From Verrucomicrobium sp. (lineage in GTDB: Bacteria > Verrucomicrobiota > Verrucomicrobiia > Limisphaerales > UBA9464): DNA of 46,992 nt. Both the position numbers and the translations under genes were made by a program. The DNA is taken from NCBI GenBank assembly GCA_021298285.1, contig JAJTFN010000044.1, forward strand, positions 1-46,992, given 5' to 3'. The notes under the pieces are model-generated. The model was given only the letters and a program-made list of their open reading frames with translations, had not been told where the DNA came from and made no database searches. This document shows positions 6,045 to 12,618 of this stretch, piece after piece (the first letter of the stretch is position 1; each line of letters begins with the position of its first letter).

Positions 6045-7583
6045 TCACTCCCACTCGATGGTCCCCGGCGGCTTGCTGGTGAGGTCCAGGACCACGCGGT
6101 TGACCCCGCGCACCTCGTTGGTGATGCGGGTGCTGATGCGCTCCAGCAGGTCGTAGGGAGCCTTCACCCAGTCGGCGGTCATGCCGTCCTGGGATTCCAC
6201 GATGCGCAGGGCGATGGTGTAGGCGTAGGTGCGCTCGTCCCCCTGCACGCCCACGCTGCGGACCGGCAGCAGCACGGCGAACGACTGCCACGTCCGGTAG
6301 TACCAGTCGGCGGCCTTCATCTCCTCGACGACGATCCGGTCGGCATTGCGGGTGATCTCCAGCTTCTCGGGCGTCAGCTCCCCGAGGCAGCGGACGGCCA
6401 GGCCCGGGCCGGGGAAGGGTTGTCGGTGGACGATCTCCTTCGGCAGGCCCAGTTCGAGCCCGAGCTGCCGCACCTCGTCCTTGAAGAGATTGCGCAGCGG
6501 CTCGAGCAGCTCGAACTTCATGCCCTTCGGGAGTCCGCCCACGTTGTGGTGGCTCTTGATCATGTGGGCCGGGTTGCCCGCGATGGGCACCGACTCGATC
6601 ACGTCCGGATAGAGCGTCCCCTGGGCGAGGAACCTGGCCTTCCCGGCCCGGCGGGTCGCCGCCTGGAACACGTCGATGAAGGTCTTGCCGATGATCTTGC
6701 GCTTGCGCTCGGGGTCGGTGACCCCCTTGAGCTTGCGCAGGAACAGGGCGGTGGCCTCCTCGTACTGCAGGCGGATTTGGAAATGGCGGCCGAAGACCTC
6801 CTGCACGACCTCCGCCTCGCGGTGCCTCAGCAGTCCGTTGTTCACGAAGATGCAGGTGAGCTGGTCGCCGATGGCCTTGTGGATGAGCGCGGCCGCCACG
6901 CTCGAGTCGACGCCGCCGCTCAGGCCCAGGATGACCTTCTGGTCGCCGACCTTGGCGCGGATCTCCTCGCAGGCCTGCTCGACGTAGTTGCGCATCGTCC
7001 AGCTCGGCCGGCATCCGCACACCCCGCGCACGAAATTGGAAAGGATCTCGCGGCCCCGGGGCGAATGGACGACCTCGGGATGGAACTGGATGCCGAAGAA
7101 GGAACGCTTCGGGTCCTCGATGGCGGCATACTCCGAATTGTCGGTGGTCGCCACGGCGGAAAAGCCCTTCGGCAGCCGGGTGAGCTTGTCGCCGTGGGAG
7201 TTCCAGACCTGGAGCGTGCCGGGAAGCTTGCGGAACAGCGGGCAGGCCTTGCGGGTGACCGTCAGGGTGCCCTTGCCGTACTCGCGCTTGGTGCCCTTCT
7301 CGACCTTGCCGCCGAGGAAATGCCCCATGATCTGGACGCCATAACAGATGCCCAGCACGGGGACGCCCATCTGGAAGATCGCCGGGTCGGGCAGGGGAGC
7401 CCCCGCGGCATACACCGAGGCCGGCCCACCGGAGAGGATGATCCCGCGCACACCCAGCTTGCGGATCTCCGCCGCCGGCGTGTCGTAGCGCAGGAGGGTC
7501 GAATAGACGTTCAGTTCCCGGACCCGGCGCGCGATGACCTGGGTGTACTGGGACCCGAAGTCGAGGATGACGATCTGCTCCAT
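6045..7583 (-). CDS. guaA: GMP synthase (glutamine-hydrolysing) GuaA
   Basis: Converts XMP to GMP using ATP and the ammonia of glutamine. The 512 residues hold an N-terminal class I glutamine amidotransferase ([15 protein letters not shown]; nucleophile Cys in VLGICYG, about C80; His-Glu in GIQFHPEV), then the ATP-pyrophosphatase domain with the P-loop [10 protein letters not shown], then the GuaA dimerisation domain ending in PPGTIEWE. Length matches the family (about 510-525). The frame is open upstream to 7655, but the family N-terminus clearly begins at the ATG at 7583. It is transcribed alone, divergently from the metal transporter operon. Confidence 0.97.
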
Positions 7584-7694
7584 GAGCAACGGTGGCGGGT
7601 CGGCGACCGGGCCATCAAGCCGGATTTGGCGCCGCGTTCCGGGCCGCGGGATCACCAGGACCCCCAGTGTCCCGGGCGCGGCCTGGACGACATC

Positions 7695-7716
7695 GATGTT
7701 TTAGTGATAAAACATC
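7695..7716. promoter_or_regulatory. Palindromic operator in front of metal transporter operon
   Basis: A perfect inverted repeat with 9-base arms, GATGTTTTA-GTGA-TAAAACATC, AT-rich in GC-rich surroundings. It is 41 bases before the start of the solute-binding protein gene and 111 bases before guaA. AT-rich palindromes of this size are typical for metalloregulators (Zur, MntR/DtxR types) in front of such transporters. A TTGACT at 7721-7726 just downstream could be a -35 box, but no matching -10 is clear. Regulator identity is inference; the only metalloregulator-like sequence in the window is the domain fused to the first permease. Confidence 0.6.
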
Positions 7717-7728
7717 CTGTTTGACTCA

Positions 7729-7751
7729 ACACTTTCTCCCGCCGAAAGTGT
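7729..7751 (+). promoter_or_regulatory. 5' leader hairpin touching the troA-like start region
   Basis: Perfect 8-base arms ACACTTTC and GAAAGTGT around a 7-base loop, ending one base before the only Shine-Dalgarno-like run (AGGAG, 7753-7757). That run abuts the ATG at 7758 with no spacer. The hairpin could affect ribosome access. It is not followed by a T-run, so it is not a terminator. Confidence 0.4.
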
Positions 7752-7757
7752 CAGGAG

Positions 7758-8777
7758 ATGCGACGGTTCTTCCACCCGACAACGATGCGTGGCCGGCGGG
7801 CTCTCGGCCTGCGGATCCGGGACCTGTTCCGGGACCTGTTCCGGGACCGGTCAACCGCCCCGGTTCGGGTGGCGGCTGCCGGGATTCTTCTGGCTTGGTG
7901 CTTCGTTGCCGCGGCCCCGGCGGCCCGTGCCTCCGATGTGGCCCCGATCTCCGTCTGTGCCACCGTGGGCATGGTGGCCGACATGGCCCGGGAGGTCGGC
8001 GGCGGTTCGGTGGCGGTGCACGCGTTGATGGGCCCGGGGGTGGACCCCCACCTCTACAAGGCCACCTCGTCCGACCTCGTGCGCCTGCAGCGGGCCGACC
8101 TGATCCTCTACAGCGGGCTGCACCTCGAGGGGCGCATGCAGGAGACCTTCGAGCGCCTCCGCCGATCCGGTCGCCAGGTCCGGGCGGTGACCGACGGGTT
8201 GCCCCGGAGCCGCCTGATCGGTGCCGGCGGGGAAGGGCAGCACGACCCGCACGTCTGGTTCGACGTCCGCCTCTGGGCCGACTGTGCCGACACGGTCGCG
8301 GAGGCGTTGGCCGGGGCGCGTCCGGCCTCTGCCGCGGACTTCCGCCGGAGCGCCGCGGCCCTGAAGGAGCGCCTCGGCGGCTTGGACCGATGGGTGCGCG
8401 GGAGGGTCGCGGAAGTGCCGGCCTCCCGGCGGATCCTGGTCACCAGCCACGACGCGTTCGGCTACTTCGGCCGGGCCTACGGGTTCCAGGTGGTCGCCCT
8501 CCAGGGGATCTCGACCGTGACCGAGGCGGGCCTCGCGGACATGGCCCAGTTGACGGACTTCATCCGCGCGAAGGGGGTGCCGGCGGTGTTCATCGAGAGC
8601 AGCGTCTCCCCGGCGGGCGTTCAGAGGATCTCCAAGGACGCCGGGGTGCGCTTGGGCGGGGAACTGTTCTCCGACGCGCTCGGCAGCCCCGGCCAGAAGC
8701 ACGACGGATTCGACCTCGGCACCTACGAGGGCATGATCCGGCGCAACGTGGACCGCATCGTGGAGGGCCTGAAGTGA
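7758..8777 (+). CDS. Metal ABC transporter substrate-binding protein (TroA/MntA/ZnuA family)
   Basis: Periplasmic binding protein that captures Mn(II), Zn(II) or Fe(II). The 339 residues carry a long basic N-region, a hydrophobic signal core ending AAAPAARA (cleavage near residue 58), and the cluster A-I fold. The ligands line up with TroA as H98 (GPGVDPHLYKAT), H165 (HDPHVWFD), H231 (SHDAFGYF) and D306 (SDALG). No His-rich loop typical of ZnuA is present, so Mn/Fe is at least as likely as Zn. Near residues 22-30 a 12-base unit repeats (7817-7848), giving DLFRDLFRD. The AGGAG abuts the ATG, so the start is not certain. Its stop overlaps the next gene's GTG. Confidence 0.92.
   Translation: MRRFFHPTTMRGRRALGLRIRDLFRDLFRDRSTAPVRVAAAGILLAWCFVAAAPAARASDVAPISVCATVGMVADMAREVGGGSVAVHALMGPGVDPHLYKATSSDLVRLQRADLILYSGLHLEGRMQETFERLRRSGRQVRAVTDGLPRSRLIGAGGEGQHDPHVWFDVRLWADCADTVAEALAGARPASAADFRRSAAALKERLGGLDRWVRGRVAEVPASRRILVTSHDAFGYFGRAYGFQVVALQGISTVTEAGLADMAQLTDFIRAKGVPAVFIESSVSPAGVQRISKDAGVRLGGELFSDALGSPGQKHDGFDLGTYEGMIRRNVDRIVEGLK
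7817..7848 (+). repeat. Short tandem repeat inside signal-peptide region
   Basis: A 12-base unit CCGGGACCTGTT occurs twice in tandem, followed by a partial third copy (CCGGGACC). It encodes the repeated DLFR of the pre-signal N-region of the binding protein. Being a multiple of three, copy-number change would keep the frame. Confidence 0.7.
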
Positions 8778-9568
8778 CCCAGGCCGGTGCAGGGTCCGAT
8801 CCGGCCGGGTCCGCCCCGCCGCTGGAGATCCATGACCTCACGGTCGCCTACCGGAACAAGCCGGTGCTGTGGGGCGTCGACCTGGCCGCCCCGGCGGGGA
8901 GGCTCATCGGGATCGTCGGGCCCAACGGCGCCGGCAAGTCCACGCTCATCAAGGCCTGCATGGGCCTGCTGCCGTGCGCCTCGGGCTGGGTCAAGGCCTT
9001 CGGGCGTCCCGTGCCCGAGTCCCTCGGGCGCATCGGGTATGTGCCGCAGCGCGAGTCGGTGGACTGGGACTTCCCGGTGAGCGTCATGGATGTGGTCCTG
9101 ATGGGCCGGTATGGGCGCATCGGGCTGTTCCGGAGGCCATCGGCCGAGGATCGTCGGATCGCGCGCGACTGCCTCGACCAGGTGCAGATGCTGCCCTTCG
9201 CCGACCGGCAGATCTCCAACCTCTCGGGCGGGCAACAGCAACGGGTCTTCCTCGCGCGGGCCCTGGCCCAGGAGAGCGACCTCTACTTCATGGACGAGCC
9301 GTTCGCCGGGGTGGACGCGGCCACCGAGGCCTCGATCATCGCCATCCTCCAGGGGCTTCGTGACCGGGGCAAGACCCTCCTGGTGGTGCACCATGACCTG
9401 CCCACCGCCCGCGACTACTTCGACTGGCTGCTGCTGCTGAACCTCCGGGTGGTGGCCTTCGGTCCCACCGCCGAGGTGTTCACCCCCGAACTGCTCCAGA
9501 AGACCTACGGCGGGCGGCTCACCCTGCTCAGCGAGGTGGCCGAGGCGGTGCAGGCCAAGGCCCGCTGA
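8774..9568 (+). CDS. Metal ABC transporter ATP-binding protein (TroB/MntB/ZnuC type)
   Basis: ATPase subunit powering uptake by the two permeases that follow. The 264 residues show Walker A GPNGAGKST, Q-loop GYVPQRESVDWDFPVSV (the WDFP string is typical of Mn/Zn ATPases), signature LSGGQQQRV, Walker B LYFMDEPFAGVDAAT and the H-loop VVHHDLP. The start is taken as GTG at 8774, overlapping the stop of the binding-protein gene by four bases (GTGA). The open frame extends far upstream but without family similarity. The next gene begins 9 bases after its stop. Confidence 0.94.
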   Translation: MTQAGAGSDPAGSAPPLEIHDLTVAYRNKPVLWGVDLAAPAGRLIGIVGPNGAGKSTLIKACMGLLPCASGWVKAFGRPVPESLGRIGYVPQRESVDWDFPVSVMDVVLMGRYGRIGLFRRPSAEDRRIARDCLDQVQMLPFADRQISNLSGGQQQRVFLARALAQESDLYFMDEPFAGVDAATEASIIAILQGLRDRGKTLLVVHHDLPTARDYFDWLLLLNLRVVAFGPTAEVFTPELLQKTYGGRLTLLSEVAEAVQAKAR

Positions 9569-9577
9569 GCCGATGCC

Positions 9578-11110
9578 ATGACCGGACCCGCGACTCCACA
9601 GGCTCGGTGCCGTCCGCACGACCGGCGGCTCCCCCGCGTCCGCCGATCGGCGTCCGGGTGGCTGGTCGCTGCGCTCTGGCTCGCCTCGGCCGGCGTGCTC
9701 CATGCCGCCAAGATCGGGGACCTGACGGAGGTGCGCTGGACCGAGCAGGCGGCCCGGTTCCTGTCGATGGCCGACCCCGCCGTCCGCCACGCCTGCCTTG
9801 GCACGGTGCTGCTGGGGGTGTCCTGTGGCCTTCTTGGGGGCTTCCTCGTCGTCCGGCGGATGGCATTGCTCGGGGACGCCCTGTCGCATGCGGTGTTGCC
9901 CGGGGTGGCCCTGGGGTTCCTGTGGAACCTGGAGAAGGACCCGCTGGCCATCTTCGTCGGGGCACTCGTCGCCGGCCTGGCCGGCTCGGCCGTGGTGTCC
10001 TGGATCACCCGGACCACACGCCTCAAGGAGGACACGGCGCTCGGCATGGTCCTGGCCACCTTCTTCGGCGCGGGTTTGTGCCTGTTGTCGATGTTCCAAC
10101 GCCTGCCAACCGGAAACAAAAGCGGCATCGAGAGCTTCCTCTTCGGGCAGGCCGCGGCGCTGGGTCCCGGCGACCTCCAGCTCATGGGTGCCGTGACCGC
10201 GCTGGTCGTCGGCATGCTGGCCCTGGGCTACAAGGAATTCCTCCTGGTGAGCTTCGACCCGGGTTTCGCCCGCGTCCTGGCCCTGCCGACCCGCCGGCTC
10301 GAGCGGGTGCTCCTGCTCCTGCTCGCCTTCGCGGTCGTGGCGGCCCTGCAGGCGGTCGGGGTGGTGCTGGTGTCGGCCATGCTCATCATCCCGGCGGCGA
10401 CGGCGTCCCTGCTGACCGACCGCTTCCACCGGATGCTCCTGTGGAGCGCGGCCATCGGGGCCGTCTCCGGCCTGAGCGGGGCCTTCCTCTCGTTCCTGGG
10501 CACGCGCCTGCCGACCGGACCGTTCATGGTGCTCTCGGCGGGCGTGCTCTTCGGGTTGGCGCTGCTGTTCTCGCCGAGGCATGGCATCGGGCCGCGCTGG
10601 ATCCGCCAGCGTTCCCAGCGCCATCGCGTGGCCCGTGAGAACACCCTGAAGGCCATCTACCAGGTGCTCGAGTCCGGCGGGTTCTCGTCGGAGGTCGTCC
10701 CGGTCGAGGCCCTGGCCTCCCGGCGGCGCGTCGATCGGCAGGCCGCCCTCCGGGAGGTTGGATCGCTCGTCCGTGCCCAGCTCGCCACCCTGTCGGACGA
10801 TGCCGTGGCCCTGACGCCGTCCGGATGGCAGGGGGCCTGCGCGATCGTGCGCAACCACCGGCTCTGGGAGCTCTACCTCACCCACGCCGCGCAGATTGCG
10901 CCGGACCACGTGCATGACGACGCCGAGAAGATCGAGCACGTGCTGGGCGAGGCGACCGTGCGCGAACTGGAACGGCGGCTGCCGAGGGCGGACGTCGACC
11001 CGCATGGCCGGCCGATCCCCTCGGTCCCGGCGGCCGACCCGGCGATGGGCCGGCGCGGGGCGTCCGCCACGGCGGGAGATCGGCCGGTGGGATACGGGGG
11101 GCGGTCGTGA
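9578..11110 (+). CDS. Metal ABC permease fused to DtxR/MntR-type C-terminal domain
   Basis: 510 residues in two parts. Residues about 70-335 are an ABC-3 type permease (VVRRMALLGDALSHAVLPG, the EAA-like KEFLLVSFDPGFARVLALP, VGVVLVSAMLIIPAATA). Residues about 350-475 resemble MntR/DtxR regulators: a degenerate winged-helix part (RENTLKAIYQVLE ... ALTPSGW) and the dimerisation/metal part. H427, E450, E453 and H454 align with MntR metal ligands H77, E99, E102 and H103. The positions of MntR D8 and E11 appear to be N and K, so a complete MntR site is not kept. Permeases with such a tail have, to my knowledge, been annotated in some bacteria; the role (gating sensor or tethered regulator) is unknown. 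It overlaps the next gene by four bases. Confidence 0.9.
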   Translation: MTGPATPQARCRPHDRRLPRVRRSASGWLVAALWLASAGVLHAAKIGDLTEVRWTEQAARFLSMADPAVRHACLGTVLLGVSCGLLGGFLVVRRMALLGDALSHAVLPGVALGFLWNLEKDPLAIFVGALVAGLAGSAVVSWITRTTRLKEDTALGMVLATFFGAGLCLLSMFQRLPTGNKSGIESFLFGQAAALGPGDLQLMGAVTALVVGMLALGYKEFLLVSFDPGFARVLALPTRRLERVLLLLLAFAVVAALQAVGVVLVSAMLIIPAATASLLTDRFHRMLLWSAAIGAVSGLSGAFLSFLGTRLPTGPFMVLSAGVLFGLALLFSPRHGIGPRWIRQRSQRHRVARENTLKAIYQVLESGGFSSEVVPVEALASRRRVDRQAALREVGSLVRAQLATLSDDAVALTPSGWQGACAIVRNHRLWELYLTHAAQIAPDHVHDDAEKIEHVLGEATVRELERRLPRADVDPHGRPIPSVPAADPAMGRRGASATAGDRPVGYGGRS

Positions 11111-12045
11111 CGCTGGTGCCCGACTTCAGCGTCCAGCGTGTCTTCGTGGAGCCCTGGACCACCGAGATCGGCACGCACGGGATGATGGCGCTGGTGACCT
11201 TCCTGGTCGGGGCGACCTGTGGGCTGGTGGGCAACTTCCTCATCCTCCGGCGGATGGCCCTGATGGGGGATGCCGTCAGCCACAGCGTCCTGCCGGGGAT
11301 CGCCGTGGCCTTCCTGTGGACCGGTTCGCGGGGCATCGGGGCGATGGTCCTGGGCGCCTTCGTCGCCGCCTTCGCCACGCACCTGTTGATCGAGGCCATC
11401 ACCCGCCATTCGCGGGTCCGGCCGGATGCGGCCATCGGCATCGCCTTCTCGACGCTCTTCGCCCTCGGCGTGGTGCTGGTGGCGGTGTTCGCCGACCGGG
11501 TCGACCTCGACCAGGACTGTGTGCTCAACGGCGACTTGCCGATGATCCCCCTCGAGCCCCCGGTCCGCCTCGGCTCCCTGTCGCTGGGGCCGCCGCCCTT
11601 GGTCCGGTTGGCGGGCCTGATGGCCGCCTCCGTGCTGTTGCTGGTCCTCTTCTACAAGGAACTCATGCTCACCTCGTTCGATCCGGGCCTGGCCGCCGGA
11701 TTGGGGCTTCCGGTGCGCGCGGTGCACCATGGCCTGATGCTGTGGCTGGCCTTGTCGGTGGTGGCATCGTTCGAGGCGGTCGGGGCGATCCTGGTCATCG
11801 CGCTGTTGATCCTGCCCGGCGCCACGGCGGCCCTCCTGACCGAGCGGATGGTTCCGCGCCTGGTCCTGGGCACGGTCCATGCCGCGCTGAGCGCGGTCGG
11901 GGGCATGCACCTGTCCGTGGCCCTGGACTGCTCCCCGGCCGGGGCCGCGGTGGTCGCGGGAGCCGTCTGGTTCACCGCGGCCTGGCTCTTCAGCCCGACG
12001 GCGGGGCTGGTCCCACGGTGGTGGCGGGCGTGGCGGGCGACCTGA
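11107..12045 (+). CDS. Metal ABC transporter permease (TroD/MntD type)
   Basis: Second membrane subunit of the transporter, 312 residues with about eight hydrophobic segments. It shares the ABC-3 landmarks with the first permease: LRRMALMGDAVSHSVLPG, YKELMLTSFDPGLAAGLGLP (contact with the ATPase) and VGAILVIALLILPGATAALL. It lacks the DtxR-like tail of its partner, so the pair is asymmetric as in TroC/TroD. The start is GTG at 11107, overlapping the upstream stop (GTGA). It is the last gene of the operon; a TTGACA at 12078-12083 may belong to the promoter of the next gene. Confidence 0.93.
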   Translation: MTLVPDFSVQRVFVEPWTTEIGTHGMMALVTFLVGATCGLVGNFLILRRMALMGDAVSHSVLPGIAVAFLWTGSRGIGAMVLGAFVAAFATHLLIEAITRHSRVRPDAAIGIAFSTLFALGVVLVAVFADRVDLDQDCVLNGDLPMIPLEPPVRLGSLSLGPPPLVRLAGLMAASVLLLVLFYKELMLTSFDPGLAAGLGLPVRAVHHGLMLWLALSVVASFEAVGAILVIALLILPGATAALLTERMVPRLVLGTVHAALSAVGGMHLSVALDCSPAGAAVVAGAVWFTAAWLFSPTAGLVPRWWRAWRAT

Positions 12046-12138
12046 CCGGGCCGGGGGCGCCCCTGTCCCGGAGGGCGTTGACAATCCGGCGTCGGCCTCC
12101 GAGGTTGACCCGACATCCAACACGAATCATCGCATCCC

Positions 12139-12618
12139 ATGAGATCCCGCAGCCTCTCCCCCAGCGTCCCTCCGCTTCGCGCCTTGTGCCTGGCCCTGAT
12201 CGCGGGCGCCCTGCCGGTGCTGGCCGGTTCCGATTGGCAGACCGATTTCGCCGCGGCCAAGACCGCCGCCAAGAAGGACAACAAGGCCATCCTCCTGGAT
12301 TTCACCGGTTCCGACTGGTGTGGGTGGTGCATCAAGATGAAGAAGGATTCCCTCGACCAGAAGGCCTTCCTCGAGTTCGCCGACAAGAAGCTCGTGCTCG
12401 TCGAGGTGGACTTCCCGAACAAGAAGAAGCAGTCCGACGCCGTGAAGCAGCAGAACGAAGACCTCCAGAAGCGCTACAACGTCGAGGGCTATCCGACGTT
12501 CGTGCTGGTGGATGGCGACGGCAAGGAACTCGGACGCCACGTGGGCTACCTCAAGGGCGGGCCATCGGCCTTCGTCCAGAAGATCGAGGGTTGGACCAAG
12601 GCCGGCTCGGCGAAGTGA
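12139..12618 (+). CDS. Secreted thioredoxin-like protein (WCGWC motif)
   Basis: A 159-residue protein with a signal peptide (MRSRSLS..., hydrophobic core ALCLALIAGALPVLAG, cleavage near residue 30) and one thioredoxin fold. The redox site reads DWCGWCIKM, preceded by ILLDFTGS, and the cis-proline is in YPTFVLVD. It belongs to the thioredoxin_7/DsbD-gamma-like group common in Verrucomicrobiota and is expected in the periplasm as a thiol reductase or disulfide carrier. It is monocistronic and convergent with trmL after 39 bases. The partner electron donor cannot be told from here. Confidence 0.88.
   Translation: MRSRSLSPSVPPLRALCLALIAGALPVLAGSDWQTDFAAAKTAAKKDNKAILLDFTGSDWCGWCIKMKKDSLDQKAFLEFADKKLVLVEVDFPNKKKQSDAVKQQNEDLQKRYNVEGYPTFVLVDGDGKELGRHVGYLKGGPSAFVQKIEGWTKAGSAK

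Follow-up and report, generated by a model that had tools for sequence, protein, structure and literature searches.

A DtxR-type tail on a manganese/iron-type ABC permease of Verrucomicrobiota: a possible metal sensor on the importer

The importer operon and its fused permease

The window, which is the whole 46,992-nucleotide stretch of Verrucomicrobium sp. DNA that we analyzed, contains an ABC importer operon of four plus-strand genes in the order substrate-binding protein, ATPase, permease with a tail, and second permease. The first gene (7758-8777) encodes a ZnuA/MntC-like substrate-binding protein (PF01297, E 2e-76; NCBIfam AztC and MntC matches were below the cut-offs). The second gene (8774-9568) encodes an ABC ATPase (PF00005) that is nearest to Mn/Fe transporter ATPases, with NCBIfam matches to PRK15056 (E 2.5e-69) and MntA (E 9e-67) that were both below the cut-offs. 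The third gene (9578-11110) encodes a C-subunit permease of 510 amino acids, in which an ABC-3 permease is joined to a winged helix and a dimerization domain of the DtxR type. The fourth gene (11107-12045; PF00950, E 1.4e-50) encodes the D-subunit permease, overlaps the fused gene by 4 bases, stops directly past its last transmembrane segment, and is tail-less in the window genome. Short in-frame direct repeats (gggacctgttcc) were noted at 7821-7853, where the first gene encodes the N-terminal part of its protein. An Rfam scan of 7400-12300 gave no match.

In the fused protein, residues 68-331 (9779-10570) match the ABC-3 permease family PF00950 in Pfam (E 6e-69; 232.9 bits, over the cut-off of 20.1), and residues 413-481 (10814-11020) match Fe_dep_repr_C (PF02742, E 4e-20), the metal-binding and dimerization domain. 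The junction comprises residues 332-354 (10571-10639) and the winged helix residues 352-412 (10631-10813). The earlier note on this DNA had described a permease with a tail of the DtxR/MntR family, and these two matches confirm that description; H427, E450, E453, and H454 are present as it named them. The N-terminal extension of the permease (9578-9713) is signal-peptide-like, with a hydrophobic stretch at approximately residues 27-44, and fits an outside N-terminus. The tail is probably cytoplasmic, judging from a count of the predicted helices with the coupling helix assigned to the cytoplasmic side.

The permease part has a PsaC-like fold (TMt 0.91 to PsaC), and its D100, H104, and D152 triad, for which the correspondence was taken from the PsaC alignment, is identical in 67/67 fusions. 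The equivalent residues of MntC (D47, H51, and D94) are essential for manganese import (PMC8487065). Since the PsaC-like fold and the D/H/D triad of MntC are both kept, manganese or iron is the likely substrate of the importer at 7758-12045.

The same fusion was found in 67 sequences, namely, the window and 66 relatives within Verrucomicrobiota. All 31 C-type orthologues in the order with at least 60% identity, counted after excluding ORFs cut by a contig end, have tail-length ORFs of 490-594 amino acids. The fusion is thus far beyond chance. In a scan of genome contigs, all matches were from Verrucomicrobiota except for one actinobacterial permease match. None of the plasmid sequences scanned matched over 80% of the fusion query, and none of the viral contigs scanned for the fusion matched.

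The metal site, DNA-reading part, and junction of the tail

The predicted structure of the tail is nearer to DtxR (VIA-align Z 19.8, rmsd 1.6 over 133 residues) than to MntR (Z 14.4), and the model therefore places it with the DtxR/IdeR type rather than with the MntR type assumed previously. DtxR has an ancillary site formed by H79, E83, and H98 and a primary site formed by M10, C102, E105, and H106 (PMC2628430). In our alignment, H427, E431, and H446 correspond to the ancillary residues, E450, E453, and H454 to C102, E105, and H106, and N355 (codon 10640-10642) to M10. H427, E431, H446, E450, E453, H454, and K358 are invariant in 67/67 fusions, while position 355 is asparagine in 66 and aspartate in one of the 67. 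In the DtxR/IdeR class, one ligand is contributed by the N-terminal domain (Met10 in DtxR), and the tail has N355 at this position. According to a review, Met10 is replaced by Asp or Asn and Cys102 by Glu in sites of the MntR type (PMC10317159). We considered N355 and K358 as lost ligands and ruled this out because the standalone DtxRs of the phylum share these residues (N in 25 and D in 17 at position 355; K in 42/42 at position 358). Therefore, they are inherited states and not losses.

Judging from the aligned sequences, both metal sites are complete except for the ligands provided by the SH3 domain of DtxR, and the tail is predicted to bind metal, probably Mn(II) or Fe(II). The earlier note read the tail as holding half of the metal site, with the N-terminal ligands lost. 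This does not hold, since both DtxR-type sites are present in every fusion. The reading arose because the site was measured against Bacillus subtilis MntR. Of the ancillary site, the note named only H427.

The DNA-reading part of the tail presents a different picture from that in standalone regulators. PF01325, the N-terminal DNA-binding domain, was detected in 0/53 tails at E values up to 0.01, whereas it was present in 10/10 standalone regulators scanned and in the window genome's own MntR. Standalone regulators keep P-G-T-x-T at columns 387-391 and the wing arginine at 407, whereas the tails are variable at these columns. In IdeR, Ser37, Pro39, Thr40, and Gln43 contact bases, and Arg60 of the wing contacts the backbone (PMC10317159). 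Mean pairwise identity in the helix-turn-helix core was 31% among the fusions versus 54% among the standalones, and in the dimerization domain 71% versus 66%, although the standalone set was partly picked by high Pfam score and its conservation may be flattered. Median dN/dS was 0.243 for the helix-turn-helix core, 0.035 for the dimerization domain, and 0.051 for the permease (Nei-Gojobori; usable pairs of 70-98.5% identity, which are non-independent and partly saturated in dS), and by this measure the recognition helix evolves approximately seven times faster than the metal domain. The AlphaFold model, which is of one chain, retains the DtxR fold in the tail (mean pLDDT 90.7). The residue patterns indicate that the winged helix, although it keeps its fold, has lost its DNA-contact signature and has degenerated as a DNA-reading element, as suggested earlier. 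Overall, the tail is a fixed and strongly selected part of a Mn/Fe-type importer and no longer carries the signature for reading DNA.

The connection between permease and tail is also fixed. The spacing from residue 331 to 355 is constant in 67/67 fusions, whereas that from 355 to 427 ranges between 72 and 84, and G336 lies exactly 19 residues ahead of position 355 in all 67. In a second class of C tails, the G-x18-ligand spacing occurs in 15/16 tails, with the sixteenth (L104) being misaligned and fitting by eye, and in the tails of D permeases it occurs in 10/10. Residues 337 to 366 form a single continuous helix in the AlphaFold model. Taken together, the fixed spacing and this helix suggest that helix 1, which bears the ligand, continues the stalk from the membrane.

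Tailed transporters elsewhere in the phylum were found by searching 384 genomes with a tail profile. Ten loci (L102-L111) have tails on both the C and D permeases (one pair was checked with Pfam), and they mostly adjoin a divergent or adjacent standalone DtxR. The D tails have D355, H427, E431, H446, E450, E453, and H454, and most of the neighboring C tails have H355, H427, E431, D446, D450, E453, and H454; ligand-type residues thus occupy all seven positions in nearly all of the tandem tails. In the tree, a branch with 100/95 support divides all permease tails from the standalones, with C and D tails separate (L121, labeled as standalone there, is really a C tail truncated at the end of its contig). 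With two tails on one transporter, a dimer of the DtxR kind could form inside the complex. The window importer has a tail on C alone of its two permeases; therefore, a DtxR-like dimer would require a second transporter, or the tail would act as a monomer.

These patterns bear on the possibility that the tail only aids folding, assembly, or the pairing of transporters, with a fixed structural metal at its sites. Such a role is consistent with the fixed junction and with the finding that every complete orthologue in the order has an ORF long enough to include the tail. However, the ancillary and primary ligands have been retained jointly at DtxR spacing, and in another lineage they were altered jointly (H355/D446/D450), a pattern more in keeping with a tuned sensor. 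The related suggestion in the earlier note, an inherited dimer contact, is insufficient alone because the metal ligands, and not just the interface, are invariant; a purely structural role is the part of it that survives, and we regard this as unlikely.

DtxR-like domains also occur next to another type of metal transporter. ORFs combining a DtxR-like domain with FeoA, an N-terminal hydrophobic segment, and a position directly beside a FeoB-like ORF were found at L087:195-1242 (-), L122:1204-2299 (-), L123:1391-2459 (-), and L131:1975-3007 (+). Both domains were Pfam-checked in L087 and L122, and in L122, L123, and L131 the spacing from the segment to the ligand equals that of the permease tails. 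Other DtxR-FeoA ORFs (L124-L130 and L132-L134) are without a clear membrane anchor.

Operators and standalone regulators

A perfect palindrome, GATGTTTTA-GTGA-TAAAACATC, lies at 7695-7716 ahead of the operon. It was pointed out previously and is real: its core, TGTTTTA-N4-TAAAACA, occurs once in the 3.37-Mb assembly at up to 2 mismatches, and the same core is found in the closest relatives. A second dyad, ACACTTTC-N7-GAAAGTGT, follows the palindrome at 7729-7751, ahead of the first gene. The window assembly, which is 88.9% complete, encodes one other member of the DtxR family, an intact MntR with a full N-terminal domain (G000:C154). This MntR belongs to a different class from the tail, without equivalents of E83 and H98. 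A second DtxR-family match was present in 47/50 fusion-bearing genomes.

The palindromes upstream of the fusion operons vary with these regulators. TTTGA-N-TCAAA precedes the operon in 24/30 loci with DtxR-type standalones versus 0/33 with MntR-type standalones (p 4e-12, ignoring the relatedness of the genomes), and both classes of C tails occur with this operator. Among the 33 MntR-type genomes, 11 have TTTTA-N4-TAAAA, 8 have TTAGCC-like palindromes, and 14 have none of the three. The iron-box-like TTAGCC/GGCTAA palindromes were noted upstream of the fusion operons in L055, L058, L060, L066, and L067; their hosts are Rubritalea, Persicirhabdus, Akkermansiaceae, and other relatives, and those checked for regulators had the MntR type. 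These sequence comparisons indicate that palindrome classes go with the type of standalone regulator and not with the class of tail. Since the window palindrome is of the TTTTA-N4-TAAAA kind found in MntR genomes, it is most likely the site of MntR and a likely operator of that standalone protein.

A fusion of this kind has been described: the CT069 protein (YtgCR) of Chlamydia trachomatis combines a permease with a DtxR-like C terminus (PMC5599777, PMC7755916), and the statement in the earlier note that the function of such fusions is not described needs to be corrected accordingly. Antisera detected species of 49 and 28 kDa (PMC5599777). Cleavage of YtgCR yields YtgR, which in the presence of iron binds the ytg promoter (PMC5599777, PMC7755916); one study found repression of this promoter with Fe(II) and another with Zn(II) (review, PMC5599777; PMC7755916, PMC6504234). 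By analogy, the verrucomicrobial tail may be cut off and, with metal in good supply, act at the palindrome to repress its operon. The shared architecture, the gene order of ytgABCD, and the perfect palindrome ahead of the operon are in line with this explanation. However, the DNA-contact residues are lost and fast-evolving, operator class tracks the type of standalone regulator, and two classes of tail occur with one class of operator. An intact MntR is encoded in the window genome, and the junction is fixed in length and predicted to be helical. Furthermore, a search of residues 300-356 for an in-frame start accompanied by a ribosome site found none that was conserved. We consider a released repressor to be quite unlikely. 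A tethered repressor, one of the roles proposed earlier, is weakened by the loss of the recognition-helix and wing residues, by the separate MntR, and by operators that follow the standalone regulators, although chlamydial YtgR, which acts as a repressor after its release, leaves this role a small probability.

Instead, the tail may act at the membrane as a partner of a standalone DtxR-type regulator, or it may pass on metal taken from the channel exit. A DtxR-type regulator with a similar dimerization domain adjoins the operon in Opitutales-type and most tandem-tail loci, in line with such a partnership. However, the only other family member found in the 88.9% complete window assembly is the MntR of a different class, and we consider sequestration or relay to be very improbable.

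A proposed metal brake and its relation to known systems

We slightly favor the view that the tail is a former repressor module that senses cytoplasmic manganese or iron and restrains the importer by transinhibition, and that it is not a tethered repressor. Of the roles proposed earlier, a metal-sensing gate fits best because the metal ligands are invariant, the DNA contacts are lost, and a junction of fixed length leads from the last transmembrane helix; the gate itself is the part that we infer. In DtxR, metal promotes dimerization and unfolds the first turn of helix 1 (PMC10317159). Since helix 1 of the tail appears to continue the membrane stalk, we speculate that this switch was coupled to the permease as follows. 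A rigid helix, beginning just past the final transmembrane segment and passing into helix 1 of the winged helix, would hold the tail in the cytoplasm. At high cytoplasmic levels of Mn(II) or Fe(II), the ancillary ligands H427, E431, and H446 and the primary ligands N355, E450, E453, and H454 would be occupied by metal. Closing of a DtxR-like dimer and unwinding of the first turn of helix 1, which is tied to the membrane, may then strain the permease dimer, and the strained dimer would import more slowly. Transcriptional control would be left to the separate MntR at the palindrome. The gating step and its direction, inhibition rather than activation, are suggested by these considerations. Against a brake, the nearest described case, chlamydial YtgR, is released and represses, the window importer has a tail on only one of its two permeases, and the tail is without an SH3-like domain, with which DtxR completes its ancillary site.

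We tentatively extend this proposal to the phylum, with a confidence that falls a little short of even. Verrucomicrobiota may have turned a DtxR-type repressor into a post-translational metal brake on importers, placed on one or both permeases of Mn/Fe ABC transporters and probably also on a ferrous iron channel through the DtxR-FeoA protein beside feoB, with the helix-1 switch driving a membrane helix and not DNA binding. If so, the switch of a known transcription factor has been rewired onto a transporter, providing fast control of manganese and iron uptake at the protein level, and fusions annotated as regulators from the domain name alone are misread. It would also become testable whether the YtgCR-type fusion first sensed metal at the transporter and released a repressor only in Chlamydia.

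The proposed logic is shared with MetNI and ModBC, in which dimerizing add-on domains allow the imported substrate to shut the importer (transinhibition; PMC10710835). In both cases, an add-on domain would sense the imported substrate and restrain the transporter. However, the domain of MetNI and ModBC is on the ATPase, whereas that of the window importer is on the permease, has another fold, and exerts an effect that is proposed only. The window permease has the fold and D/H/D triad of the manganese importers PsaBC and MntBC in common, but differs from them in that its permease pair consists of C plus D, with the tail on C. The tail shares the fold, the dimerization domain, and the ancillary and primary ligands with the DtxR/IdeR repressors; unlike them, it has no SH3-like domain, is fused to a permease, and has an eroded recognition helix and wing.

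The closest likeness is to YtgCR. A limited literature search found no paper on verrucomicrobial permease-DtxR fusions; however, the architecture is not new. YtgCR and the window protein share a permease with a DtxR-like tail and a four-gene importer operon with the same gene order. In contrast, YtgR is released and binds DNA, whereas the window tail is without the DNA-contact signature and is accompanied by a separate MntR. By architecture, compared through the published description, the window protein is a YtgCR-type fusion, and the form in Verrucomicrobiota is a variant of a known fusion.
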